From NCBI RefSeq assembly GCF_028609885.1, contig NZ_CP063195.1, positions 744,001-808,000 on the forward strand: DNA of 64,000 nucleotides, in the 5' to 3' direction. The translations under genes and the position numbers were made by a program. Each line of letters opens with the position of its first letter. Within the stretch, counting starts at the first letter, position 1. This document shows positions 35,877-49,233 of the stretch, piece after piece. The notes below the pieces were generated by a model. It was given only the letters and a program-made list of their open reading frames with translations. It did no database searches and was not told where the DNA came from. The DNA is from Corynebacterium jeikeium (GTDB lineage: Bacteria; Actinomycetota; Actinomycetes; Mycobacteriales; Mycobacteriaceae).

Positions 35877-35963
35877 CTTTCTTCATTTTGGAGGTCGTCC
35901 CGCCTTTCAGGAGCGGTGAATGCTGGTGATCCGTGGAAATCGCGTCAAGATAGCACTCCCTGA

Positions 35964-38493
35964 GGCTAATCCCCGCTGGCGCGGGGAGCACCAGGAACAA
36001 GCCTTCTTCCACTGGGACCTGGACGGCTCATCCCCGCTGGCGCGGGGAGCACTGTGTGAACCTACATAACGGCAACCGGATCGACGGCTCATCCCCGCTG
36101 GCGCGGGGAGCACTCATGGCACTCTCTGACACTGAACAGCGCGAACGGCTCATCCCCGCTGGCGCGGGGAGCACGTCTTAAACACGTTCGCCGCCGCGCT
36201 CCCCTCCGGCTCATCCCCGCTGGCGCGGGGAGCACCTGACACTGGCCACCCCGCCGCACTCAAACACCGGCTCATCCCCGCTGGCGCGGGGAGCACGCGC
36301 GACGAGTCCAATCAAGTGCTGAGCGTTGCGGCTCATCCCCGCTGGCGCGGGGAGCACCCTAGGGAGGTGATGACATGGCAGATCGAAAGAGGCTCATCCC
36401 CGCTGGCGCGGGGAGCACTCCGCCGAAGAGCTGCCGCACTTCTCGATCGGCGGCTCATCCCCGCTGGCGCGGGGAGCACGACCGGAGCGCCGGGTTAATC
36501 ACACCGTACGCAGGCTCATCCCCGCTGGCGCGGGGAGCACAGAGCCTTACGCGCCTCCGCTAGCGCCTTCTCCTGGCTCATCCCCGCTGGCGCGGGGAGC
36601 ACCCAGAATTCCCAGAAGCCACAGCCTTCTGGTACGGCTCATCCCCGCTGGCGCGGGGAGCACACCGTGGCGGGTTTTTATCCCGGTTGCGTTCCAGGCT
36701 CATCCCCGCTGGCGCGGGGAGCACCCAGAATTCCCAGAAACCACAGCCTTCTGGTACGGCTCATCCCCGCTGGCGCGGGGAACACTTCTCGTCACCATCG
36801 CCAAGCGCGTCAGTAGTCGGCTCATCCCCGCTGGCGCGGGGAGCACATCTCGCGGCGTAGTCGGTCACCGGGCGTGCCCGGCTCATCCCCGCTGGCGCGG
36901 GGAGCACGTGTTTCGACGCGATATGGGGTTGCAGCACTCAGGCTCATCCCCGCTGGCGCGGGGAGCACATCTTGCCGATGGACTCCTTAAAGCTTTTAGC
37001 CGGCTCATCCCCGCTGGCGCGGGGAGCACCCAACTCCAAAACCTTCACCTTCACCGAAAAACGGCTCATCCCCGCTGGCGCGGGGAGCACACCTCATCCA
37101 AACCTCAATCGACCACGGATGCCGGCTCATCCCCGCTGGCGCGGGGAGCACTGGCTACCTACACGGCTGAACTACTACATCGGCGGCTCATCCCCGCTGG
37201 CGCGGGGAGCACCTGCCGAGGGTACTAGGGGCGTAGCGGTCGACCGGCTCATCCCCGCTGGCGCGGGGAGCACACTTTCAAGGGGTTGCGCGACGGGCTA
37301 GATACCGGCTCATCCCCGCTGGCGCGGGGAGCACCCCCGCACACCACCAGGGTCACCCTTATCGCCCGGCTCATCCCCGCTGGCGCGGGGAGCACGTCGA
37401 TGGCGTTTGCGGAGCAGGCGCGGAAGACGGCTCATCCCCGCTGGCGCGGGGAGCACGGCCACACAGCACCGGGGCCACCGTAACGCTGCGGCTCATCCCC
37501 GCTGGCGCGGGGAGCACATTAAGGAGATGGTGGAGAAGGGGTGGGCGGACGGCTCATCCCCGCTGGCGCGGGGAGCACCGGAACCCGTCGATGCCGGTTT
37601 GGATCGTTTGCGGCTCATCCCCGCTGGCGCGGGGAGCACATTAAAGAGATGGTGGAGAAGGGGTGGGTGGACGGCTCATCCCCGCTGGCGCGGGGAGCAC
37701 AGCTTCTTGCCTTCCTTGCGGGTGATCGCGTCCGGCTCATCCCCGCTGGCGCGGGGAGCACTCCTTCGGGATGCGGCGCAGTTCATCCCGCACTGGCTCA
37801 TCCCCGCTGGCGCGGGGAGCACCAACCTTCACCGCACCCCATAACCCCGGCCTCGGGCTCATCCCCGCTGGCGCGGGGAGCACGAGCAAGCCCGCGAGGA
37901 CAAGGCAGGCCGCTACGGCTCATCCCCGCTGGCGCGGGGAGCACTGCGTGAGGTTAAGCCGAAGGTCTTTAAGACCAGGCTCATCCCCGCTGGCGCGGGG
38001 AGCACCGCGCCCAGCGCAGGGGCGATAACCCTATACACGGCTCATCCCCGCTGGCGCGGGGAGCACCGACCGTCCGCCGTCACCACCCACCCCTTGCCCG
38101 GCTCATCCCCGCTGGCGCGGGGAGCACTGCACCTACATCACCTCTAAGGCCACGGTGGTCGGCTCATCCCCGCTGGCGCGGGGAGCACGCATTCTTAATG
38201 CCCTCCCATGCAGCCGTGGCCGGCTCATCCCCGCTGGCGCGGGGAGCACCTACAAGCTCGGTGGAGGAGAAGATTAGGGCGAGGCTCATCCCCGCTGGCG
38301 CGGGGAGCACCCCTTAACCTTGTCTGTGAGGCCGTCGATAGCCGGCTCATCCCCGCTGGCGCGGGGAGCACCCCAATATGTCAACGCGCGAGACAATACG
38401 CTCCGGCTCATCCCCGCTGGCGCGGGGAGCACCTCAAGCTCATCGGCGAGTTCGCGGTGGTCGCCGGCTCATCCCCGCTGGCGCGGGGAGCAC
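35964..38493 (-). CRISPR. Type I-E CRISPR array, 42 repeats and 41 spacers
   Basis: The 28-base core repeat contains the palindrome CCCCGCGCCAGCGGGG and recurs every 61 bases (33-base spacers; one at 36541 is 34). In transcript (minus) sense it reads GTG, GCTCCCCGCGCCAGCGGGGA, TGAGCC, and the next base is G after most repeats, giving an effective 29-base repeat and 32-base spacers as in E. coli I-E. The terminal repeat at 35964 is mutated (GGCTAAT for GGCTCAT) and one at 36758 has GAACAC, so the old end is at low coordinates and the leader end at 38493 beside cas2. Two spacer pairs are near-identical: 36603/36725 and 37518/37640. Confidence 0.98.
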
Positions 38494-38588
38494 ACTCTCT
38501 GAGCTGTGGTTCTTTGAGCCGTTGGGCCAATTCTACTTCAGCTTGTTTTCACCACCGCCTACCGGACTAGCGAACGATCACCGACGCT
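38494..38588 (-). promoter_or_regulatory. CRISPR leader
   Basis: The 95 bases between the cas2 stop codon and the first (newest) repeat. They contain AT-richer tracts (TTCTACTTCAGCTTGTTTTC on the plus strand). By position this is the leader that drives array transcription and is the site of spacer insertion. No specific integration-host motif is identified. Confidence 0.65.
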
Positions 38589-38912
38589 TTACCTCCTCCG
38601 CGCATTACTCCATCCGCGCCGCCTCGTCGAAGCTGCCCGGTTGTTGGGGCGCGTAATCAAGTTCACCCCATCGAAATCAGTTGGAACCCAGTTATGCCGG
38701 TGAGTCTTGAAATCAAAGCCCTGCTCGTTTGCTGCCTGGAACACCATGATCGCTCGGCCATCATTCACCAGGTCGCATGTTCGCTCCCACACCTGGTCGC
38801 GCACCCTGGCACTGGGGCGCCCTACGAACACACCTGGAGAAATCTCCAACAGCCACCTTGTGAGGTCACCGCGAAGACCCGCAGGACATGCAGATACAAC
38901 CAAGACCATCAT
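38589..38912 (-). CDS. cas2: CRISPR adaptation nuclease Cas2 (type I-E)
   Basis: A 107-residue Cas2e protein: MVLVVSACPAGLRGDLTRWL at the N-terminus with VFVGRPSARVRDQVWERTCD, then AIMVFQAANEQGFDFKTHRH. With Cas1 it captures and inserts spacers. The start ATG ATG overlaps the cas1 stop (ATGA), so it is coupled. The C-terminal extension after THRHNW (about 40 residues) is basic, as in other Cas2e proteins. Confidence 0.93.
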   Translation of the reverse strand: MMVLVVSACPAGLRGDLTRWLLEISPGVFVGRPSARVRDQVWERTCDLVNDGRAIMVFQAANEQGFDFKTHRHNWVPTDFDGVNLITRPNNRAASTRRRGWSNARRR

Positions 38913-39850
38913 CTGATTGGCCCATCGTCTGACCAATTGCGTTTGGAAGCCACGACCTCCAAGTCCGACCACAACACCAGCTCAGCATCAATATTTTGAG
39001 CCTCGGAGCTCATCTCCATTAGGAACATCAGATCCCGAATCATGGTCGGTATAAGGTTCTTCTTCACCACATAATCGCGGATCACCCTCCGAATGTTCAC
39101 ATCGGCGGTCAGCTCGTTCTCCGCAACTGCATCAAACGCCGCTGGAATCGAAATCTCGGCCTTGTACAGATCCGCAATGTCGTAAACAAAAGCCCGTTCC
39201 GTGCCTTGGTGAATTACGCCTAAAGAGGGAATGAACCCCAACGACGCGATGACCGCATGAGCCACCCCGTATAGGGCTGCATTCGCCGCCGTCAGGGTTC
39301 GGTTAATCGGGTCGCCACTGGAAAAACTCTGCGGATCATACATCCGCTTCTTCCATGGCACTCCCGTGCGCTCGGCCTCCGCTAGGTAGACCTTCTTCAT
39401 CCGGGATCCCTCGCGACCACGTAGCTGCGCCATTGTCGCACGTGAAATATCTTCGCCAGGGAAGCGCATGGCGTACATCTGTCTGGCACAGAAAAGCCTG
39501 CGGCGCTGGTTGCTTACTATTGACGCCTGCGCCTCCGCCGCTGCCGAAGAATTCGATAGCGAACGGCCGGATGCGTAGTAGCGCACGCCCTTTTCTCCAA
39601 CCCATACGACAGAAACCCCGGAGTCTCCCAGAAGAGCCATCGCCGCATATGTCACCTTCGTACCGGGGCCAAGCAGTAGGGCCGCAATACTTGCCGCAGG
39701 TACATGGGTGATGCCGCGTTCATCTGCGAAGGTAACTGCGTTGTTGTCACGATTGACCACGCATCGCTCGGCGTACAGAAAGGAAATCCGATCCTGCACG
39801 CGCGGAAGGATCGGACGATCCATGGGTGACTTTGAGGGGTGCGGCGCCAT
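38909..39850 (-). CDS. cas1: CRISPR integrase Cas1 (type I-E)
   Basis: A 313-residue Cas1e with the catalytic Glu in LRGREGSRMKKVYL near residue 143, the His in SLGVIHQGTERAFVYD near 212 and the Asp in YDIADLYK near 225. The N-terminal beta-domain begins DRISFLYAERCVVNRDNNAV. Starts 10 bases after cas6e. Complete and apparently functional. Confidence 0.95.
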   Translation of the reverse strand: MAPHPSKSPMDRPILPRVQDRISFLYAERCVVNRDNNAVTFADERGITHVPAASIAALLLGPGTKVTYAAMALLGDSGVSVVWVGEKGVRYYASGRSLSNSSAAAEAQASIVSNQRRRLFCARQMYAMRFPGEDISRATMAQLRGREGSRMKKVYLAEAERTGVPWKKRMYDPQSFSSGDPINRTLTAANAALYGVAHAVIASLGFIPSLGVIHQGTERAFVYDIADLYKAEISIPAAFDAVAENELTADVNIRRVIRDYVVKKNLIPTMIRDLMFLMEMSSEAQNIDAELVLWSDLEVVASKRNWSDDGPIR

Positions 39851-39860
39851 AGCTCAGGCC

Positions 39861-40535
39861 TTAGCTTGTCTTGCTCGGGGTGGGCTTAGCCAGAGTCAAC
39901 AGGCCACAACCATAGGCTTTACCCCGGCCAATTCCCTCGACGAGTGACTTCTTAAATGTTTCAACGTCGTCGATCTGCAAAGTGCCGCGGTATCGCACCG
40001 TGCCAATCACAACCTGGCGGCCTTTCGGATTCTTCGCCAGCTTCGAAAAGCGCAGTGTCTTCCGCTCCACGATCAGGGTCTCCAGTGGGGTGAATCCACA
40101 GCTTTTAGCCTTGGTGTTAAACCATTCCAACTGTGCAGCCTCGCCCACCAGCGCGGTAAGTTTGCCTCGAGTTCCCCGTGGAGAGCCGGGAGCCTTCTTG
40201 GCCGCCACAGGGTTTAGCACGACTTCGTAATGCCACTGTTGGCCATCCGCGAGGGCTTCCAGCAGGCGGTTGTAGCTTGCTTTCTGTGGATCGTGTTCGG
40301 AACCGGTTTGCTCGGCGATCTTGGTCGGATCGCAGCTATCTGGTCCGACGATGTACACAAAATGTTCGTCGGCTCCCCGAGTTTTGCCGTCGTGGCGCCA
40401 GAGAATTCGTTCTTTATCGCCGACTTCCTTGGGGAAGCAGCTCAGAACTGCCGCGTGCATCGCCTGCGGATTTCCCAGCAACTTTCGTGCTTGACGACTG
40501 CTGGGGTTGAGGTGAAGTCGAGTGAAGGTCGTCAT
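39861..40535 (-). CDS. cas6e: CRISPR RNA endoribonuclease Cas6e
   Basis: A 224-residue Cas6e/CasE protein that cuts the repeat hairpin and stays in Cascade. It starts MTTFTRLHLNPSSRQARKLL, has the likely catalytic His in QAMHAAVLSCF near residue 27, and ends with the G-loop GIGRGKAYGCGLLTLA. It overlaps cas5e by 4 bases (ATGA). Confidence 0.94.
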   Translation of the reverse strand: MTTFTRLHLNPSSRQARKLLGNPQAMHAAVLSCFPKEVGDKERILWRHDGKTRGADEHFVYIVGPDSCDPTKIAEQTGSEHDPQKASYNRLLEALADGQQWHYEVVLNPVAAKKAPGSPRGTRGKLTALVGEAAQLEWFNTKAKSCGFTPLETLIVERKTLRFSKLAKNPKGRQVVIGTVRYRGTLQIDDVETFKKSLVEGIGRGKAYGCGLLTLAKPTPSKTS

Positions 40536-41239
40536 GCCTGCATCACCGCCTCCATAAATGGGTCGTTGGTCGAACCGAGGTCATTCTCGACGGGCACCCC
40601 GGTCTTGTCTTGGACGACGTCTCGCCAGCCATACTCCCGGTGCTCTTGAGAGAAGGAGATTGGTACGTCGCGTCTGGCTATGCCGGTTTCACCCTGTGTG
40701 GCGTCACGAAAAATAGGCAGCGAGAGCTTCGGTGCCCGAGTTTTCCTGTGCGCGCGGGTAGCCTGCCAGTCGGTTGCGCGCAGTGCGTCGACGGCCGAGC
40801 CGCGGAACGTACCGAGGTAGAGGTTCGGGGGAGCGGGGCACGAACGGCGCCCAAGGAACAACGGGAAACGGGGGCGCTGGACGGCGCTGGCGAGTTCGTC
40901 GATGAAGGAATCATTGTCCGATTCGACGGCAGCGACGAACACAGCATCCTCAAGGTAGTACCGCGTGACCAGGTTCGCGTTGTCCTTTGGCCTTTTCTGC
41001 CACGGCTGGGCGGTCTGGTAATCCCGCAGTAGGGAACCAGGCTGATCTACGCGAACGGCGAACGTTAGAGCTGCAAGGTCTTGCAGGTCGTCAGTGCGCC
41101 GGCGCCCTTGTGCAGCGGCTAGAAGCCCCAGCACACCGGACTTGGTGGGCACCTGTTCGGTTGCGCGTTGCTTGAATCGGCTACTGACACCCCACGATTG
41201 CATGGGGCCAGAGAGCCTGAGTAGGAGGGTGGAAGGCAT
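40532..41239 (-). CDS. cas5e: Cascade subunit Cas5e
   Basis: A 235-residue Cas5e (CasD), which caps the 5' handle of crRNA in Cascade. The typical N-terminal LLLRLSGPMQSWGVSSRF, PTKSGVLGLLAAAQGR and the later FPLFLGRRSCPAPPNL are visible. The gene starts within the cas7e stop codon (TAATG). Confidence 0.94.
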   Translation of the reverse strand: MPSTLLLRLSGPMQSWGVSSRFKQRATEQVPTKSGVLGLLAAAQGRRRTDDLQDLAALTFAVRVDQPGSLLRDYQTAQPWQKRPKDNANLVTRYYLEDAVFVAAVESDNDSFIDELASAVQRPRFPLFLGRRSCPAPPNLYLGTFRGSAVDALRATDWQATRAHRKTRAPKLSLPIFRDATQGETGIARRDVPISFSQEHREYGWRDVVQDKTGVPVENDLGSTNDPFMEAVMQA

Positions 41240-42369
41240 TAGCGCTCCTGAGTGGCAGCTTCTGCGACAGCTTCGACGAGCTCGGGCAGAGTGGTCTTCT
41301 TGGCCAGATCGATCTCGATGAAAGCGTCGGCCAGGTCGCCCAAGGACATCACAAAGGCGGCCTGTGGGACGAAACCGTAGGTATTTTGGATCTGCTCGGC
41401 TTCGCGAGCCAGACGATCAGCAGCGGACTTGCGGCGGCCTTGGTTGTTCTCGGAGACTACCGGTTCCTCGAAGGCGTTGACTAGGGAGATGGAGCGGTCA
41501 TTTCGGACGGTGACGTACACGAGCTCCGGCACACTGTTGTGTGCGAAGGTGTTTTGTTTACCCGTGGGCAGCGACGTGATGAAGCTCTCTGTGAAAGCCT
41601 TGATGGCTTCAGCCAGTACGCTCTGGTCACCTAGGTTCTCCGCCAGCGAGTCAACGTCGAGAGTAGCGAATCGGTAGAGGGTGGAGGACATCATCTGTAC
41701 GGTGCCCATCATGGCTGCACCGACTTCTTCGTCGGCTTCCACCATGTCGTCGACAGCGGTGTAGAAGTCGAACTCCGGCTCGGATTCATGCACGCCAATA
41801 GCGTGTGCGACCTGGACGGATGCGTCGACGTTGAAGTCTGGAGCTTCTGCGACCATACGGCCGAACATGCTGATGTCCACGCCATGTTCTTGGTCGAACA
41901 GCACAGATACTTCCCTCTTGGGGAACTTATTTTCTTCGCGGTGGTCGATTGCGTACTGGGCCAGGTTACTCACCTGTCGGACGCTTAGGAAGAGCAAGTA
42001 CCCGAGTTCAGATTTTTGTTCTACTTCCTCACCTTCAGCCTTTGCGGTCTTCCTCTTGGTCAGCTTGAAGCCCGCAGCGGTGAAGACCTTCTCGGAAAGG
42101 GTGGTTGCTTCGGCCTCTTCGATGGAAGTATCCAGCTCTTGGATGCGGTCTGCGACCAGCTCGATTGCGCGACGGGTTCGGTATCCCACGAAGCCAGTGG
42201 GGAACTTCTCGCCGAAATCCTTGCGGATGGCACGCTTCCAGGCTTGGGAGGAAACACGCTGGCGTGGTGCACCGCCGAAAATTGCAGTCTTCGGAGCGCC
42301 CGTATCGTCACGGTTAATCAGGCTCGGTGGAAGGGTTTGCAGGGCGTGGAAATCAATGGTGATGGACAT
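41239..42369 (-). CDS. cas7e: Cascade backbone subunit Cas7e
   Basis: A 376-residue Cas7e (CasC/Cse4) that forms the crRNA-binding filament. It begins MSITIDFHALQTLPPSLINRD and has the family blocks GGAPRQRVSSQAWKRAIRKDF and LPTGKQNTFAHNSVPELVYV. ATG 42369 follows AAAGGAA; an upstream frame extension to 42486 lies inside cse2 and is rejected. Confidence 0.95.
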   Translation of the reverse strand: MSITIDFHALQTLPPSLINRDDTGAPKTAIFGGAPRQRVSSQAWKRAIRKDFGEKFPTGFVGYRTRRAIELVADRIQELDTSIEEAEATTLSEKVFTAAGFKLTKRKTAKAEGEEVEQKSELGYLLFLSVRQVSNLAQYAIDHREENKFPKREVSVLFDQEHGVDISMFGRMVAEAPDFNVDASVQVAHAIGVHESEPEFDFYTAVDDMVEADEEVGAAMMGTVQMMSSTLYRFATLDVDSLAENLGDQSVLAEAIKAFTESFITSLPTGKQNTFAHNSVPELVYVTVRNDRSISLVNAFEEPVVSENNQGRRKSAADRLAREAEQIQNTYGFVPQAAFVMSLGDLADAFIEIDLAKKTTLPELVEAVAEAATQER

Positions 42370-42397
42370 GGAGAGATTCCTTTCGAAATGAAGAGTT

Positions 42398-43033
42398 TTA
42401 GTTTTCTTGGGTAGTAGCGGAGCCGTCGATGTCGCGCGGGTAGCGTGCAAAGGCGAAGTCGCGTCCCCACCGCAGTAGCACGCCATTGCGAGTACGTGGG
42501 TTCGAGAGCTTGCGCAGATCTGCAGCGAACCAGCCGTAGTTAAAACGGAGGTCGTTGGATCGGAGCAGCGAAATGAGGGAGCGGGTCTGGATCAGTCGGG
42601 ACTGGGCGGTGCGAGCAAGCACCAGCGCGTCGAAGCGACCCTTGATAGATTTCGACTCGCTGGTCTGAGCTAGACGGCCACAGGCACTGGCAAACGAATG
42701 GGATTCATCGTGTACCTCGTGAGTCGCGCCCTGCATGTGGAGCGCGAAGAATGTAAGCGCGTGAAATGCTGCCTCCTCGGATGGGGAAGGGGTATCACCA
42801 CGTCCAACCTCCTTCTCGGACAGAAGTACAACTAGGGAAGAAAGAACGCTTTCAAAAACTAGGGGGTTTTTGTCTACGGGCTGGCCAGCCGACTTCCGAA
42901 GTTCAGCGAGCGTGCCGCGAGCCCTGGCCTGGTTGGGGTATCCAGTCCGGCCGAGATAGTCGGCCTGAAGCTGGCTACAGGTGGCAGCGACCGCTGAGCT
43001 CAGCCGTGGCCGGTCATCAGTTGTTTGGTCCAT
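42398..43033 (-). CDS. cse2: Cascade small subunit Cse2 (Cas11e)
   Basis: A 211-residue helical protein of the CasB/Cse2 family, two copies of which line the target strand in Cascade. FESVLSSLVVLL, AAFHALTFFALHMQGA and FDALVLARTAQSRLIQTRSL with INYGWFAADLRK-like (FNYGWFAADLRKL) fit the family. It lies 28 bases before cas7e. Confidence 0.9.
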   Translation of the reverse strand: MDQTTDDRPRLSSAVAATCSQLQADYLGRTGYPNQARARGTLAELRKSAGQPVDKNPLVFESVLSSLVVLLSEKEVGRGDTPSPSEEAAFHALTFFALHMQGATHEVHDESHSFASACGRLAQTSESKSIKGRFDALVLARTAQSRLIQTRSLISLLRSNDLRFNYGWFAADLRKLSNPRTRNGVLLRWGRDFAFARYPRDIDGSATTQEN

Positions 43034-43077
43034 GATTTTCCTATTCTTGGTGTATGTAGTGCTGAAAGTTGAAACGC

Positions 43078-44712
43078 TTAGCGCGGAACGGTACGCGGAA
43101 GAATTTCACGGAGCTTCCTCTGCAGCCAGTTCATGACTGTTCCAGCGGATACGAAGCGTTCATCATCGTTAGATTCGATGATTCTGCCGACCAGTGCCTT
43201 GGGGCCGGCACCAACGAGAAGCACGTCTGCGTGTTCTAGGACAGCGTTGCGTACCGTCATTTCCCAAGCTTTCAGCCGGGGCTCTAGGTCTGCGCCGTGC
43301 AGAGATTTCATCCATTCGCTGAACTTCGGCTCTAGCTCGGCTAGGAGGGTGTCCGTTGCAGCTGGCTGGAATTCGTAGTCCCCACCCGCCGCCTGAAAGA
43401 GCTGACCTGCAAAGCTGCCCAGCATTGTTCCAGCCTGGCTAGTCGCTGCTGCTAGGTTGAGAACTGCCTGACGTTGATTGAGCGCCGACTTTGGAAGAAT
43501 CTCGAGAGGCAACTCGATTTGAGTGCTGATGCTAATGCCTACGACTGCGCTATTTGGCCCGTACTCCATGGACGTCATGGAGACGTTCAAAGTCTCCGGC
43601 AGGTCAACCTCATTCTCCTTGAGATAAGCAAGCTGGTCGATCGTCTTAGGACGTTTAGGTGCTCGGTTTTTAGCGTCGTAAACCGGGTCGGTTTCCAACG
43701 CGATCAACGGTTCCAAGCTGCGCCACATTGTCCGCTGAGAATCGAGAGGCTTGGGGTAGTAGACGTCCAAAGTCTTCGTGGACTTGTTCTTGCTGAAACG
43801 GTAGGGCGTCATCGGGTCGTCCTGGACATTCGCATTTGCATTGGGAATGCGGTCCCCGTTGGAGACAAGAACTTGAGTGATCAGTCCTCCATCCGGGAAG
43901 AGACGGATGCGCCTGGATTGCCAGGTCAGAATTTCAGCCGGCCCCTTGGGATAGATTCCATCCTTGTTTGCAGGATCCAGACGTTGAGCGGAGGTGTCTG
44001 GTTCGCGTTTCCACACGGGATGGTCATTCTTTGCTTGGAGAGCTCCACCAGTGGTGTTCAATGCCAGAGTTTCCTGGAGGTTTTCCCCAAGAATGATCGT
44101 TGCAGTGATAGCGCCGGTCCAACCGGTGCCGATTGGGTAACCCCTTCCGCCCTTGACGCGGGGGTCACCAACGGCACCAGACTTGATCCCAGAATAGTCG
44201 TAGGCCTGCACGTAGATCAGCCAGCGAGCGGCCTCTGCATAGGTGAGTGACAATGCGCCATCGCCAGCTCGGAGCGTGAAGTAGTCGTCTTCAAAATCAG
44301 GTACGATCCGGCGCACATCGGTAGTCGCGTTCTTGCTCGTATGCAGGTCGGCAACCTGCATGAAAGGTTGCTTTGGGTCGAGAAGATCAAAACGGTCAGC
44401 GTAGCGCTCCAGATAGTTCAGCACGGTATTGTCTGGTTCGTTCTCCGCAGCGGCTTCCAGCCTGTCGGGAATCCATTCAGCCATATCCAGTTCTGTACCT
44501 GGATCGCTAAGCAATTCCTGGCGATGTGCGCACCAGTAAACCGTTAGAAGCAGGCGATAGATGGCGACGTCCTGCAAAGGGCTGTCACCACGAATTGATG
44601 CGACTGAATGGGAACCGTCGAAGATCTCGCGCAGGCTGAGCTCTGCAGCGGAGCCATCGGTCAGCGTAGTGAGAATCCACGGCTGATCGAGGAGGCTAAA
44701 GCTCTCCGTCAC
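43078..44712 (-). CDS. cse1: Cascade large subunit Cse1 (Cas8e)
   Basis: A 544-residue Cas8e, which recognises the PAM and recruits Cas3. The N-terminus TESFSLLDQPWILTTLTDG with LSLREIFDGSHSVASIRGDSPLQ and QPFMQV is typical (E. coli CasA starts similarly), and GIKSGAVGDPRVKGGRGYPIG and the C-terminal four-helix region are present. The GTG at 44712 follows AAAGGAAG; the longer frame to 44772 lacks family support. The 126 bases before it separate it from the cas3 end and may hold its own promoter. Confidence 0.93.
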   Translation of the reverse strand: MTESFSLLDQPWILTTLTDGSAAELSLREIFDGSHSVASIRGDSPLQDVAIYRLLLTVYWCAHRQELLSDPGTELDMAEWIPDRLEAAAENEPDNTVLNYLERYADRFDLLDPKQPFMQVADLHTSKNATTDVRRIVPDFEDDYFTLRAGDGALSLTYAEAARWLIYVQAYDYSGIKSGAVGDPRVKGGRGYPIGTGWTGAITATIILGENLQETLALNTTGGALQAKNDHPVWKREPDTSAQRLDPANKDGIYPKGPAEILTWQSRRIRLFPDGGLITQVLVSNGDRIPNANANVQDDPMTPYRFSKNKSTKTLDVYYPKPLDSQRTMWRSLEPLIALETDPVYDAKNRAPKRPKTIDQLAYLKENEVDLPETLNVSMTSMEYGPNSAVVGISISTQIELPLEILPKSALNQRQAVLNLAAATSQAGTMLGSFAGQLFQAAGGDYEFQPAATDTLLAELEPKFSEWMKSLHGADLEPRLKAWEMTVRNAVLEHADVLLVGAGPKALVGRIIESNDDERFVSAGTVMNWLQRKLREILPRTVPR

Positions 44713-44838
44713 GATAGTTCTTCCTTTCGTGTGTAGTTCTGCTGTGTACTTTCGGTATGCCATTGCGGGCATTTCCCTTTCTAGGGAGGCCGAAACAGCT
44801 TTTCATTTGCCCCTAAAGCTACTTGTGAATCAAACATT

Positions 44839-46309
44839 TCATGCGCCATTCCGCGATCCAGGGAACCCCTCGGTTCGCAGGCCGAGGAGTTCTGAATAGT
44901 TAATCTTCACGTCCGCCAAGGTGGCCCCAAGGTTCTGGTCTAGGCGTAGCGCTACTTGTCCCCGGAGGAGGTAGTGGTCCTTCCATCCTTCTGGTGTTTG
45001 GTCTTCCAAAGCATCGACTGTGCGATCCCACACCTTGTCGGAGCGTGTGAACATCGTGGGTAGACGAACAGTGGAAGCAGCAAGCTGAAAGGCTGTATCG
45101 AAGTTAGGGATTGTCGTGTCTTCCACTACACACTCCGGTTGGTCGTTGTTCAGTCCGGGGAGAGGGCGATAGCCGTATTCATCATCGACGATCGGAATGA
45201 TCTCGATGCTGTTATCGGCATCGCGGACGGAGGCCGTGGCCTTGATCTCCTCCTCTGAGCGATCGTGAACGAGCATCTCAAAGAGTGAATCCAACCGTTT
45301 GCCCGTTTCATCGGGGCTTGGTATCCGGAAGACCTTCGATCGTGACTTATCGGAGTCGTCCTTACCTCGACTACTTGTTTTGGATTCCTCCCATCGAGCT
45401 GCCCACGCTTCCGGAAAGTTATGATCCGCGTCGAGGTCGTACGCTCTTTGAACTAGTTGCGGAACATCGGAGGGGCGTCGGAATCCCGTCTCCACCACCT
45501 CTGTAGAAAGCAGTTGGTAAGTCGTGAGCAGCAACGCATCGTCGTAGATGTATTCTGTGCCGGTATCCCATATGGGAACTGGGGTCGTTTCCTCGACACC
45601 GCGAATGTAAATGCGCGCATCACGCAGTTTCTCCGGTCTATCGCTGTCTGGCCTCTGGTGACGGTGCAAGCGCCCAGCCCGCTGAATAATCAGATCCATT
45701 GGTGCGATGTCGGTGATCAGTGCGTCAGCGTCGATATCAAGGCTCTGCTCCAGGGTCTGTGTACCGCATACGATGCGCAGGGGAGGGCGCCCTTGTTTTC
45801 TTTGTGACGCCGGCCCCAGCTCGTTGAGGAGGTCTTCCTCGTGACGAGCGCGATCGAGTCCGGTGAATGCGGAGTGGTGGAGGCGAACCTCATCGGGAAA
45901 TACCGAGTCCAGAGCCGTGAAAGCCTCTTGTGCACGCTTGATGGTGTTGCAAATGACAAGAACCACGCCGCCGTCGGAACAGAGCTCGGTGACGAGTCGC
46001 GTTAGTTCCTCAACGGAATCATCGATGATTTCTACTTTGGCGTGCATGTCGTCCGGACGTGGAGTGACGGCTTGTTCACTGACGCCTTCTTCAGTCACAA
46101 GAGTGAGAAGTGGATAACCTTCACCGGCTAGGGCGAGGTCATTCTTATGCATCTGGCCACCGTAGGCAGTAACGAGCTCCTTTTTGCGGCTGGTCGGCAA
46201 GGTGGCGGACAGGAGGATTACGGGAACGCCATATGCGGCGAGCCACCGCAAGGTTTCGGCGAGATATTCGTTGGTATAGGTCGAGTAGGCGTGAACCTCG
46301 TCGAAGATC
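44839..46309 (-). pseudogene. cas3: cas3, 3' part (helicase from the DEVH box to the end)
   Basis: Continues the Cas3 helicase after the insertion: IFDEVHAYSTYTNEYLAETL (motif II), ILLSATLP (motif III), VVLVICNTIKRAQEAF, the motif V-VI region RIVCGTQTLEQSLDIDADAL and IIQRAGRLHRHQRPD, and the C-terminal domain. It has no start of its own; any translation would begin inside the insertion element. Joining it to the 5' part minus one 3-base duplication gives an uninterrupted 950-codon frame, normal for Cas3e. Confidence 0.93.
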
Positions 46310-46381
46310 GGACCTGACCCCTGTTTGGTAGACACCTGATATCCAGCCCGGTTGGGTTGGGAAGAAAGGTAATCTACCACC

Positions 46382-46681
46382 ATGCCTAGGTATTCCGAAC
46401 AGTTCAAACGTGATGCTGTGGCCCTCTATGAAAACAATGAGGACCTTTCACTTCACGCGGCTTCAGCAGAGCTTGGAGTCAATCGTTCCTCGCTTTTCTC
46501 CTGGCTTCAGCAATACGGCACCGGCAAACGTGCCCGCACGAAGGCCATGCGCGACAACGCCAAGGAGACGACTGATTCCGAGCGAATCCGCCAGCTAGAA
46601 AAAGAGAACGCGAAGCTGCGCGAAGAACGCGATATTCTGCGCAAGGCCGCGAAATATTTTGCCGAAGAGACACGCTGGTGA
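46382..46681 (+). CDS. IS3-family OrfA in the cas3 insertion
   Basis: A 99-residue protein with an HTH_Tnp_1 domain (MPRYSEQFKRDAVALYENNE, then AASAELGVNRSSLFSWLQQY) and a C-terminal coiled coil (RIRQLEKENAKLREERDILR) ending KAAKYFAEETRW, the classic IS3 OrfA layout. It overlaps orfB by 4 bases. Confidence 0.92.
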   Translation: MPRYSEQFKRDAVALYENNEDLSLHAASAELGVNRSSLFSWLQQYGTGKRARTKAMRDNAKETTDSERIRQLEKENAKLREERDILRKAAKYFAEETRW

Positions 46682-47574
46682 TCCGCTTCCAGTTTGTCTA
46701 TGACCACCGAACCGAGTACTCGGTCAAGCGGATGTGCCATGTGTTAAAGCTCAATCGCTCCTCGTTTTATAAATGGGTCAACACCCACGAAAATCGCAGG
46801 TTAAAGATATGTTCCGATGCCCTTATTGGTGCAAGAATCAAGGCCATCTTTGATGATGAGAACGGGCTTTATGGTGCTAAACGCATCGCTGCAAGCCTCA
46901 ACGACGATACGGACTTCGGCCCGATCAACCATAAGAAGGTTGCGCGCATCATGAAATCCATGGGGCTAAAAGGCTTTAGCAAACGGCGTCGATGCATCAC
47001 CACCCGGCGCAAGCCTGGTCACCGTGTCATGCCAGATTTAGTAGGCCGTACATTCACCGCTGACGAGCCGAACCGTGTTTATGTAGGCGACATCACCTAC
47101 CTGCCGTGTAAGGGCGGTAAGAACATGTACCTGGCCACGGTCATTGACACCTATTCACGAAGACTTGCAGGTTATGCACTCGCAGACCACATGCGTGTCT
47201 CACTGGTCATCGAGGCTTTGTCCCATGCCAGCACAGTCCGCGGAAGCCTTGACGGGGCTATTTTCCATTCTGATCATGGAAGTGTGTACACCTCACAGGC
47301 GTTTAGGGACCACTGCGCCCAACTTGGTGTACGCCAATCCATGGGCGCGGTGGGAACTAGTGCCGATAATGCCCTGGCAGAATCATTTAACGCCACCTTA
47401 AAACGTGAAGTGCTACGTGATCGGAAAGTCTTTGATAATCCCATTATCTGCCGGCAGGAAGTCTTTCGATGGTGCATGCGCTACAACACCCGCAGACGGC
47501 ACTCCTGGTGCAACCTTCTAGCCCCCAATGACTTCGAAGCACTCACATCAGCTACACTGACCCAAGCAGCATAG
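46678..47574 (+). CDS. IS3-family OrfB transposase in the cas3 insertion
   Basis: A 298-residue DDE integrase starting at GTG 46678. Catalytic residues are in VYVGDITYLPC (Asp), FHSDHGSVYTSQAF (Asp) and NALAESFNATLKREVL (Glu). The N-terminal HTH_21 segment reads FQFVYDHRTEYSVKRMCHVL. The complete frame suggests the element is still able to move. Confidence 0.93.
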   Translation: MIRFQFVYDHRTEYSVKRMCHVLKLNRSSFYKWVNTHENRRLKICSDALIGARIKAIFDDENGLYGAKRIAASLNDDTDFGPINHKKVARIMKSMGLKGFSKRRRCITTRRKPGHRVMPDLVGRTFTADEPNRVYVGDITYLPCKGGKNMYLATVIDTYSRRLAGYALADHMRVSLVIEALSHASTVRGSLDGAIFHSDHGSVYTSQAFRDHCAQLGVRQSMGAVGTSADNALAESFNATLKREVLRDRKVFDNPIICRQEVFRWCMRYNTRRRHSWCNLLAPNDFEALTSATLTQAA

Positions 47575-47612
47575 CTAACCCCCGACGTGTCTACTTTCCG
47601 GGGGTCAGGCCC

Positions 47613-48997
47613 ATCACCACTTTCCCAGCCAGCGCCAGGTGGCGCAGCATGGAGTGTCGAATTTGAAGCGCCATCATGAGAACCTGGTCGATGGTTCCGA
47701 CCACGAAGTTAGACAGTAGGCCGTTCTTGCGGCCGGATAGCCAGTCGGTAGCGATGACAGTCCCGTGGTCAGCACAATCCTCGCCGATGTCGCTGTAGCG
47801 GAGCTTGCGGTAATCCTTATTGAGGCGGTTCTTGCTGTGAGCTAGGTAGAGAGACGACACGGCAGAATTTTCAGTGATGTTCTCCACCCAGCAAGAAAAG
47901 CGTTTGAAAAGGCCGTTTGCCGTTGCCATTGTGGGTGCCGCCAGAATCGCGCCGCTGGCGTGATTGTGCTGGGCGAAAAGTAGAGCCGCCTGGAGGGCTC
48001 CTTCAGTTTTTCCTTCTCCGGTTGGAGCCTCGATTATGAGTAGAGTCGGGCCGGGAGAATTAGAGTTCAGTAGTTCTGCAACTGCGAATTGCACGGGGCG
48101 TGGGGTGGCGCTTTCTGGCCAAGCAAAGCTCACGCGATAGTTCTCGGCAATCTGAGTGGGGTCTTCGCTGAAGTGTTTGAACTCGGTGTGGAGATCGAAC
48201 TTAGCTTTTGCCATTCCCAGCTTGATGCGATCGGCTTGGGAACCGCTAAAGCGAAGAGGGAAGAAATCCGTGTTGGAGGCCAGCCAGTCGCACATCACCG
48301 TGAATCCGGTGATGATTTGAATGGCTGTTGTTGGTGGCTTCCCTTCTAAAGCGTCAAGGGCAGGTTGGACGTGAGCGGTAGAGGCGAGAGTATCCAGGAT
48401 CTCATCGACGGCGCTTTGCCACTCGGGAGGGTAGCTATTGACGAAAGTGGTGACTGCCTTCCGGCCAGCCGCGGTGAGCCAACCATGGTGAGCTTCCACC
48501 GTTTGGGTGAGTGACAAAGCAACGGGAGCTTTGAGTCCATGTGTCTTTAGCCAGCGCTTCAGCAGTTCCCGAGAATAGAGCGGGTGGGCGAGGTTGGCGA
48601 CATCTTCATCGGGAGTAAGATCCGGGATAGGAATGCCAGCGTTTTCGAGTGGGTAGAGCAAAGGCGCGTTTGTTTCGGGGGAGCGAAGTTTACGTAAGAA
48701 CGGGCCGGATATCTTCCCCACATCATGGGCAGCTACGAGGAAAACGGCGAGTGAACGGATGTGTTCAGGGGAGAGCCGTGTGCTGCGGCTGAGGAAGTCC
48801 TTGGTCTGTGGGGAAAACCAGGTATCCCAAAGATGGGTTGCGACCGCGCCGGAATCGACCATGTGCTGAACGAGGGACATTGGTCCATGCTCGTCTCCCG
48901 ATTTAGCTAGGAATGCGCTGGCTGTGGGGGAGAAGCTGTCGACTAAGTCGTTCCAGGAATCTAAATCGAACAGTGGTGCGCTGTGGGGGTCTGTCAT
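47613..48997 (-). pseudogene. cas3: cas3, 5' part (HD nuclease and helicase motif I)
   Basis: Encodes the first 461 codons of Cas3e: the HD nuclease domain with FLVAAHDVGKISGPF near residue 93, VEAHHGWL near 168, and the helicase Walker A region LIIEAPTGEGKTEGALQAAL near 330, then MATANGLF and TDWLSGRKNGLLSNFVVGTIDQVL. It breaks in GKVV, just before the DEVH box, and continues a few codons into the insertion element (MGLTPGK). A truncated HD domain plus half helicase should not degrade DNA processively. The RBS region GAAAG lies about 10 bases before the ATG and is the sequence matched by the mini-array. Confidence 0.93.
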
Positions 48998-49033
48998 GTC
49001 CGTTGGCTTTCGTAGTGTTGTGTTCTACCAACA

Positions 49034-49062
49034 AAGTTAGCAAGGATGCCGTTACCTTGCAA
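49034..49062 (-). promoter_or_regulatory. Probable cas3 promoter
   Basis: On the minus strand TTGCAA (49057-49062) and TAACTT (49034-49039) are separated by 17 bases, placing the transcript start near 49027 and giving a 5' leader of about 30 bases. The 11-base match to the mini-array (49000-49010) falls inside this leader. Confidence 0.5.
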
Positions 49063-49144
49063 TGCCAAGTTCGGATTAAAATAAAGCGCGCCGTGAGCTG
49101 GGTGGAGTCTGCAGTTTTGTAGGGTGGGGAGCTAGTGATGCCCA

Positions 49145-49233
49145 TGTCTCCCAGCGCCAGCTGGGATGAGCCGTTGGCTTTGCACGGTTCAGAACATGGG
49201 ATCACATGCTCCCCGCGCCAGCGGGGATTTCTT
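49145..49233 (+). CRISPR. Degenerate one-spacer mini-array (CreR-like candidate)
   Basis: Two repeat-like units at 49145-49172 and 49206-49233, exactly 61 bases apart, enclose one 33-base spacer-like segment. The first unit has CCCAGCGCCAGCTGGG in place of the normal stem, a compensatory C-G to A-T change that keeps the hairpin, and keeps the TGAGCC handle. The second keeps CCCCGCGCCAGCGGGG but has a diverged 3' end. Orientation is opposite to the main array and divergent from cas3. A possible promoter box TAGGGT lies at 49120-49125. The 11 bases CCGTTGGCTTT at the first repeat-spacer junction recur at 49000-49010 over the cas3 ribosome-binding region. Confidence 0.8.

Follow-up and report, generated by a model that had tools for sequence, protein, structure and literature searches.

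The type I-E CRISPR-Cas locus of a Corynebacterium jeikeium strain harbours, upstream of cas3, a small unit consisting of two degenerate repeats and one guide, which raises the question of what a lone guide at this place might recognise and whether it could act on the cas genes next to it. All coordinates refer to the window, i.e. the whole 64-kb stretch of DNA that was analysed, in which cas3, cse1, cse2, cas7, cas5 and cas6e were identified on the minus strand by NCBIfam.

The cas locus and its mini-array

The locus and the mini-array comprise the following features:

35963..38494, minus strand: main CRISPR array, period 61
38589..39850, minus strand: presumed cas2 (38589-38972) and cas1 (38909-39850), by ORFs and position only
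39861..44772, minus strand: Cascade genes cse1, cse2, cas7, cas5 and cas6e, behind cas3 and on the same strand (NCBIfam)
44839..46407, minus strand: C-terminal part of cas3, a 522-aa ORF running into the IS3-family element (NCBIfam)
46310..47612, plus strand: IS3-family element within cas3, with ORFs at 46382-46681 and 46678-47574 and an inverted-repeat pair as its ends
47591..48997, minus strand: N-terminal part of cas3, 468 aa, HD domain and helicase start (NCBIfam)
49145..49172, plus strand: psiR1, degenerate first repeat, 23 of 28 bases as in the main repeat, with an intact ATGAGCC handle and G as the next base (49173)
49174..49205, plus strand: guide (spacer), 32 nt, beginning TTGGCTTTGCACGG
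49206..49233, plus strand: psiR2, degenerate second repeat, 22 of 28 bases as in the main repeat, with the hairpin retained and the handle lost; a T-rich, terminator-like tail follows

While cas3 is a single frame of around 960 aa in relatives, it is split by the IS3-family element in this strain, and interference may therefore be lost; the Cascade genes and the guide-target pair described below are intact. The nearest named relatives found for Cas3 were those of Corynebacterium sp. ACRQK (90 % identity), C. jeikeium Cj47444 (89 %) and Corynebacterium sp. ACRPH (81 %).

The mini-array contains one guide and lies upstream of, and divergent from, cas3. In agreement with the first-pass annotation of this DNA, its two repeat-like units start 61 nt apart on the plus strand (at 49145 and 49206), i.e. 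at the period of the main array. All 36 matches to the mini-array unit in the 2.52-Mb genome fell either in the main array or at the mini-array, which is the sole ectopic match genome-wide and thus, like the CreR RNAs discussed below, an ectopic mini-CRISPR adjoining cas genes. One terminator-like site was found (49210-49227), against 0.5 expected. Rfam returned at E<=1 a single chance-level match to an unrelated family, and no plasmids matching the intergenic region were found.

The predicted fold of the plus strand between 49130 and 49240 contains both repeat hairpins and reaches -57.1 kcal/mol (z -5.8), with none of 200 shuffles equally stable. In this fold a long helix can also form between the 5' flank of psiR1 (49135-49147) and the guide's 3' terminus (49194-49205). 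A compensatory change in the psiR1 stem had been taken as a sign of selection for the fold: the replacement of C-G by A-T at the fourth pair is indeed present, but that pair does not carry the argument, since, where psiR1 is retained in close relatives, two out of three have it broken (T.T in G126 and A.C in G133). Over the 37 distinct psiR1 sequences, stem positions were paired in 159 of 222 cells versus a shuffle mean of 145 (sd 3.6; 159 reached in 0 of 2000 shuffles), an excess that lends modest support to selection for the fold.

A probable target site upstream of cas3

The 11 bases CCGTTGGCTTT at the junction of psiR1 and the guide (49171-49181) occur again in the cas3 leader, at 49000-49010, where the PAM place reads CCG, the same as the end of the repeat. 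Both observations of the first-pass annotation hold, while the leader is probably the wrong target. What had been overlooked is that the guide also matches AAC-TTGGCATTGCAAGG on the minus strand (49071-49055), 58-74 nt ahead of where cas3 begins, which probably represents the better target. The region contains the following features:

49000..49010, plus strand: second copy of CCGTTGGCTTT, the match in the cas3 leader, probably not the target
49033..49038, minus strand: candidate -10 of cas3, TAACTT, 18 nt from the candidate -35 (by eye only)
49055..49068, minus strand: target seed, protospacer positions 1-14, mismatches only at 6 and 12 (guide comparison, genome search)
49057..49062, minus strand: candidate -35 of cas3, TTGCAA, inside the target site (by eye only)
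49069..49071, minus strand: PAM AAC (guide comparison)

Of the first 14 guide bases, 12 match the target, the mismatches being positions 6 and 12, and the pattern AANTTGGCNTTGCANGG occurs at one site in the 2.52-Mb genome, i.e. upstream of cas3. A full 32-nt protospacer would span 49037-49068. As known from CreR, the guide thus shows limited complementarity to a cas promoter region behind a PAM, with the promoter identified by eye; by the same means, 35 nt were counted in the window from the candidate -10 to the cas3 ATG. The promoter scan found no sigma-70-like promoters, and across 30 loci there was no fixed distance between the target and a TAnnnT box.

It seems unlikely that the RNA acts on the cas3 leader via CCGTTGGCTTT, be it as an antisense RNA or with the leader as Cascade target, even though the 11 bases do match and none of the five close species shows any change in the leader. 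In the alignment of these species, G125 lacks the target site as well as psiR1 and guide and retains psiR2 and the leader, i.e. the leader is invariant also where there is no guide. Conversely, the guide of G126 is altered at position 6, and its leader did not follow. Leader and guide hence do not change together in the relatives, which is where their covariation had been expected to appear, nor are the RNA and its complementarity to the leader preserved jointly, as they would be for an antisense RNA. Furthermore, CCG occupies the PAM place and the match is restricted to this clade: among the 52 guides of the genus described below, a seed match of 7 bases no more than 100 nt from the start of the Cas3 match was limited to three members of the clade and four other loci, in which it is the AAN-PAM target itself.

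Two further observations concern these relatives. In G125 (C. jeikeium Cj47444, locus L043) one deletion took the target site, psiR1 and the guide together. Around 30 nt of the cas3 leader (48998-49026) are invariant in the five species, while the sequence upstream varies.

Guide-target pairs across the genus

The search for Cas3 covered 201 of the genus's genomes (242 available) and gave a match in 86; eight of these (E 9e-21 or weaker) were left aside, and the 78 stronger-match cas3 loci were used. A mini-array was present at 52 of the 78 loci, while none was recognisable at the other 26. An automatic rule had yielded 43 mini-arrays, one of which (L025) was a main-array end and was removed, and ten were added by eye, including L096; L072 was counted. 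At these loci the psiR1 handle is mostly intact and the psiR2 hairpin was recognised in all but L093 and L096, while little is left of the psiR2 handle (35 distinct psiR2 show 30 % identity to ATGAGCC).

With the seed defined as positions 1-5 and 7-11 directly behind AA, 51 of the 52 mini-array loci have a guide match behind an AAN PAM in the region upstream of their own cas3, i.e. with 10/10 seed positions in 37 loci, 9/10 in 11 and 8/10 in three (G075, for instance, has a seed mismatch at position 5). The mini-array of L096 has no target in its own cas3 upstream region. All 51 matched targets fall in the cas3 upstream region, the sole region scanned; in L014, L015 and the six loci with minus-strand targets, the target lies near the cas3 start and not at a -35.

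Several controls speak against chance. When own guides were compared with the Markov-shuffled own region, again with AA required, 10/10 was reached in 0 of 1040 cases, 9/10 in 0.2 % and 8/10 in 2.8 %. A repeat-blind search, requiring only CCN ahead of the guide and AAN ahead of the target, detected a pair in 38 of the 78 loci versus 21 of 1560 shuffled ones, one of the 38 (L082) being a tandem repeat. Random 32-mers reached 14 in 40 of 20000 cases; this control probably includes samples from the target region, and the other controls were therefore relied on. For the 37 distinct guides, own pairings total 355 versus 266 expected from other regions, a value reached in 0 of 10000 permutations, and the own region was strictly best for only 26 of them, with four of 1332 foreign pairings also giving 10/10. 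From one species to another, guide and target change in concert, and pairs of similar loci show matching changes in both at position 5 (G106 and G017), position 2 (G152 and G104) or positions 1, 5 and 9 (G034 and G068).

The target position was also chosen in an unbiased manner, i.e. as the best site by positions 1-13 equally weighted, with no mask and no PAM required. This picked the identical site in 50 of the 52 loci, with AAN ahead in 36 of the 37 distinct guides. The numbers of matches at positions 1 to 20 (out of 37) were 36, 37, 37, 36, 35, 12, 35, 36, 35, 34, 32, 12, 32, 24, 21, 15, 9, 9, 10 and 9. Positions 6 and 12 thus match in only 12 of 37 guides each, while their neighbours match in 32-35 (p=2e-8 for position 6 versus 5 and 7, p=4e-6 for position 12 versus 11 and 13), and the background match rate at positions 15-20 is 33 %. 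In E. coli, Cascade flips out every sixth guide base (PMC5904413). The drop at positions 6 and 12 would therefore be a Cascade signature, since plain RNA-RNA pairing should have no reason to spare these positions. Antisense pairing, offered by the first-pass annotation as the alternative, is disfavoured because matches reach background exactly there: the drop is predicted by CreR-type, Cascade-bound autorepression, and an antisense RNA on the cas3 leader leaves it unexplained.

When 20 loci outside the genus were scanned with looser criteria, three had a guide-target pair upstream of cas3, versus 0 of 600 shuffles, i.e. L161, a Rothia sp. MAG (10/10 with AAG), and L136 and L137 (9/10 with AAT). 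The scan gave no pair in L158 (Trueperella) and L162 (Aeromicrobium), nor in L119 and L138, two loci of the genus outside the 78.

Mini-CRISPRs also occur in seven temperate-type C. xerosis phages (12 records), where they lie close to an HTH gene and the integrase and consist of three I-E-like repeats plus two guides; that of phage Bran (MK977714, L144) is located at 2430-2600. These guides had no target among the 78 cas3 upstream regions; in phage Bran, none of the five best-scoring sites for each guide was preceded by an AAN PAM, and in 242 genomes of the genus they gave only scattered matches (in three and four genomes) and no convincing target.

Proposed feedback, guide length and known systems

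Taken together, our data suggest that the guide of the mini-array very probably loads into the cell's own type I-E Cascade, binds the AAC site upstream of cas3 and represses the cas operon. The core idea of the first-pass annotation, a Cascade-loaded crRNA-like RNA repressing cas3, therefore finds strong support in the guide-target covariation across the genus, while its leader target is probably wrong. In this mechanism the plus strand would be transcribed from just upstream of psiR1, and Cas6e would cut psiR1 and psiR2, as the kept handle and hairpins suggest, to give the handle ATGAGCCG, the guide and a 3' hairpin. Cascade would then read the AAC PAM and pair at positions 1-5, 7-11 and 13-15, with positions 6 and 12 flipped out, a binding mode proposed from the match pattern. 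Pairing would stop after around 15 bases, presumably too short to recruit Cas3, so that RNA polymerase would be hindered and the DNA left uncut. Since the Cascade genes follow cas3 on the same strand, this would constitute negative feedback on both cas3 and the Cascade genes, and by analogy to what reviews report for CreR, it may be relieved when crRNAs from the array compete for Cascade; anti-CRISPRs likewise lift the repression in CreR systems. From transcription through Cas6e cutting and Cascade binding to repression, these steps are deduced from the DNA. In E. coli, short off-target Cascade binding left transcription unchanged (PMC5904413), which counts against this mechanism, as do the targets near the cas3 start, the negative promoter scan, the 26 loci in which no mini-array was recognised and the split cas3 of this strain.

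Could the mini-array instead be a toxin-antitoxin unit similar to CreTA, in which a small toxin gene or RNA, and not the cas operon, would be repressed by the guide? The anatomy is alike, i.e. two degenerate repeats, a promoter match of around 11 bp and an own PAM (as described in PMC9458426 and PMC10989794), but the 35 nt from the candidate -10 to the cas3 ATG, counted by eye, offer no room for a separate gene, and all 51 matched targets lie within the scanned cas3 upstream region, which makes this very improbable. The hallmark of CreTA, a targeted promoter that drives a toxin gene or RNA, was not encountered, the target being upstream of cas3. Least probable of all is a functionless relic of an old array with chance matches, which would suit the degeneration of both repeats and the loss of most of the unit in G125 and which the covariation seen at 51 of the 52 loci with a mini-array, together with the footprint at positions 6 and 12, already contradicts.

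Returning to the Cascade-bound guide, its PAM and length differ between loci. The third PAM base of the 51 matched loci is C in 39, T in eight, G in three and A in one. The base preceding the spacers of the window's array (40) is G in 31, T in six, A in two and C in one, whereas C is the commonest in 30 of 31 other loci with arrays; AAC therefore looks ordinary for the genus and not the usual acquisition PAM here. Two main-array spacers of the window match M. abscessus prophage genes (RecT-like and lysin A; L146, L147), with an AAG PAM at one phage protospacer, while the second does not fit.

Guide length was measurable in 50 of the 51 matched loci and falls into two classes, i.e. 19 nt (three loci) or 20 nt (30) and 31 nt (six) or 32 nt (11), with none between. 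Main-array spacers are 31-35 nt long and nearly always 32 (1122 spacers summed per locus, with overlap among own-array loci). One Cas7 step covers six bases, and the two classes differ by 12 nt, i.e. two such steps. The guide of the window belongs to the long class and would therefore rely on the loss of pairing after around position 15. In the type I-B system of Haloarcula, spacers of 24 bp gave repression with neither interference nor primed adaptation, and with spacers of 20 bp the repression was weaker (PMC10989794). The two classes thus suggest a natural use of shortened guides, i.e. repression without cutting, as designed in Haloarcula (PMC10989794). It is quite conceivable, if still somewhat doubtful, that the 19-20-nt guides (33 of 50) form a Cascade two Cas7 subunits shorter, which represses without licensing Cas3, while 31-32-nt guides rely on pairing lost after around base 15; guide length would then be under selection, type I-E systems of Corynebacterium would contain a built-in CRISPRi module, and their genomes, in which positions 6 and 12 may drift freely, would record how Cascade flips bases in living cells.

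Among the known systems, CreR is closest, its primary account reportedly being that of Liu et al. 2023 in Cell Host Microbe 31:1481. CreR and the mini-array share a crRNA-like RNA from a mini-CRISPR, partial complementarity to a cas promoter and a location adjoining the own cas genes; while CreR represses cas, expression of the RNA and repression are predicted here. Reviews present CreR as cas-regulating RNAs of type I-B, I-E and V-A systems (PMC13131331, PMC12948488, PMC12737573), the occurrence in type I-E being reported in PMC13131331. CreA of the haloarchaeal type I-B CreTA, as portrayed in PMC9458426 and PMC10989794, likewise shows the order psiR1-guide-psiR2, a more diverged psiR1, a seed of around 11 bp and repression by Cascade, but it represses a toxin RNA, whereas the site found here is upstream of cas3 and no toxin gene was seen. 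The scaRNA of Francisella is also a degenerate-repeat RNA with a short match by which a Cas effector represses transcription, although the effector is Cas9 and not Cascade and the target lies outside the cas locus (PMC9458426).

In the literature searched, the scope of which left out subscription journals, no report of CreR in Corynebacterium was found. The Corynebacterium mini-array would be a control of the CreR kind and therefore of a kind already known, while the guide-length classes and the footprint at positions 6 and 12 may be new. An odd intergenic unit thereby turns into a testable control circuit that is widespread in the genus, and since the natural guide-target pair of this operon differs from species to species, evolution provides a record from which the rules of type I-E Cascade for seed, PAM, flipped bases and guide length can be read.
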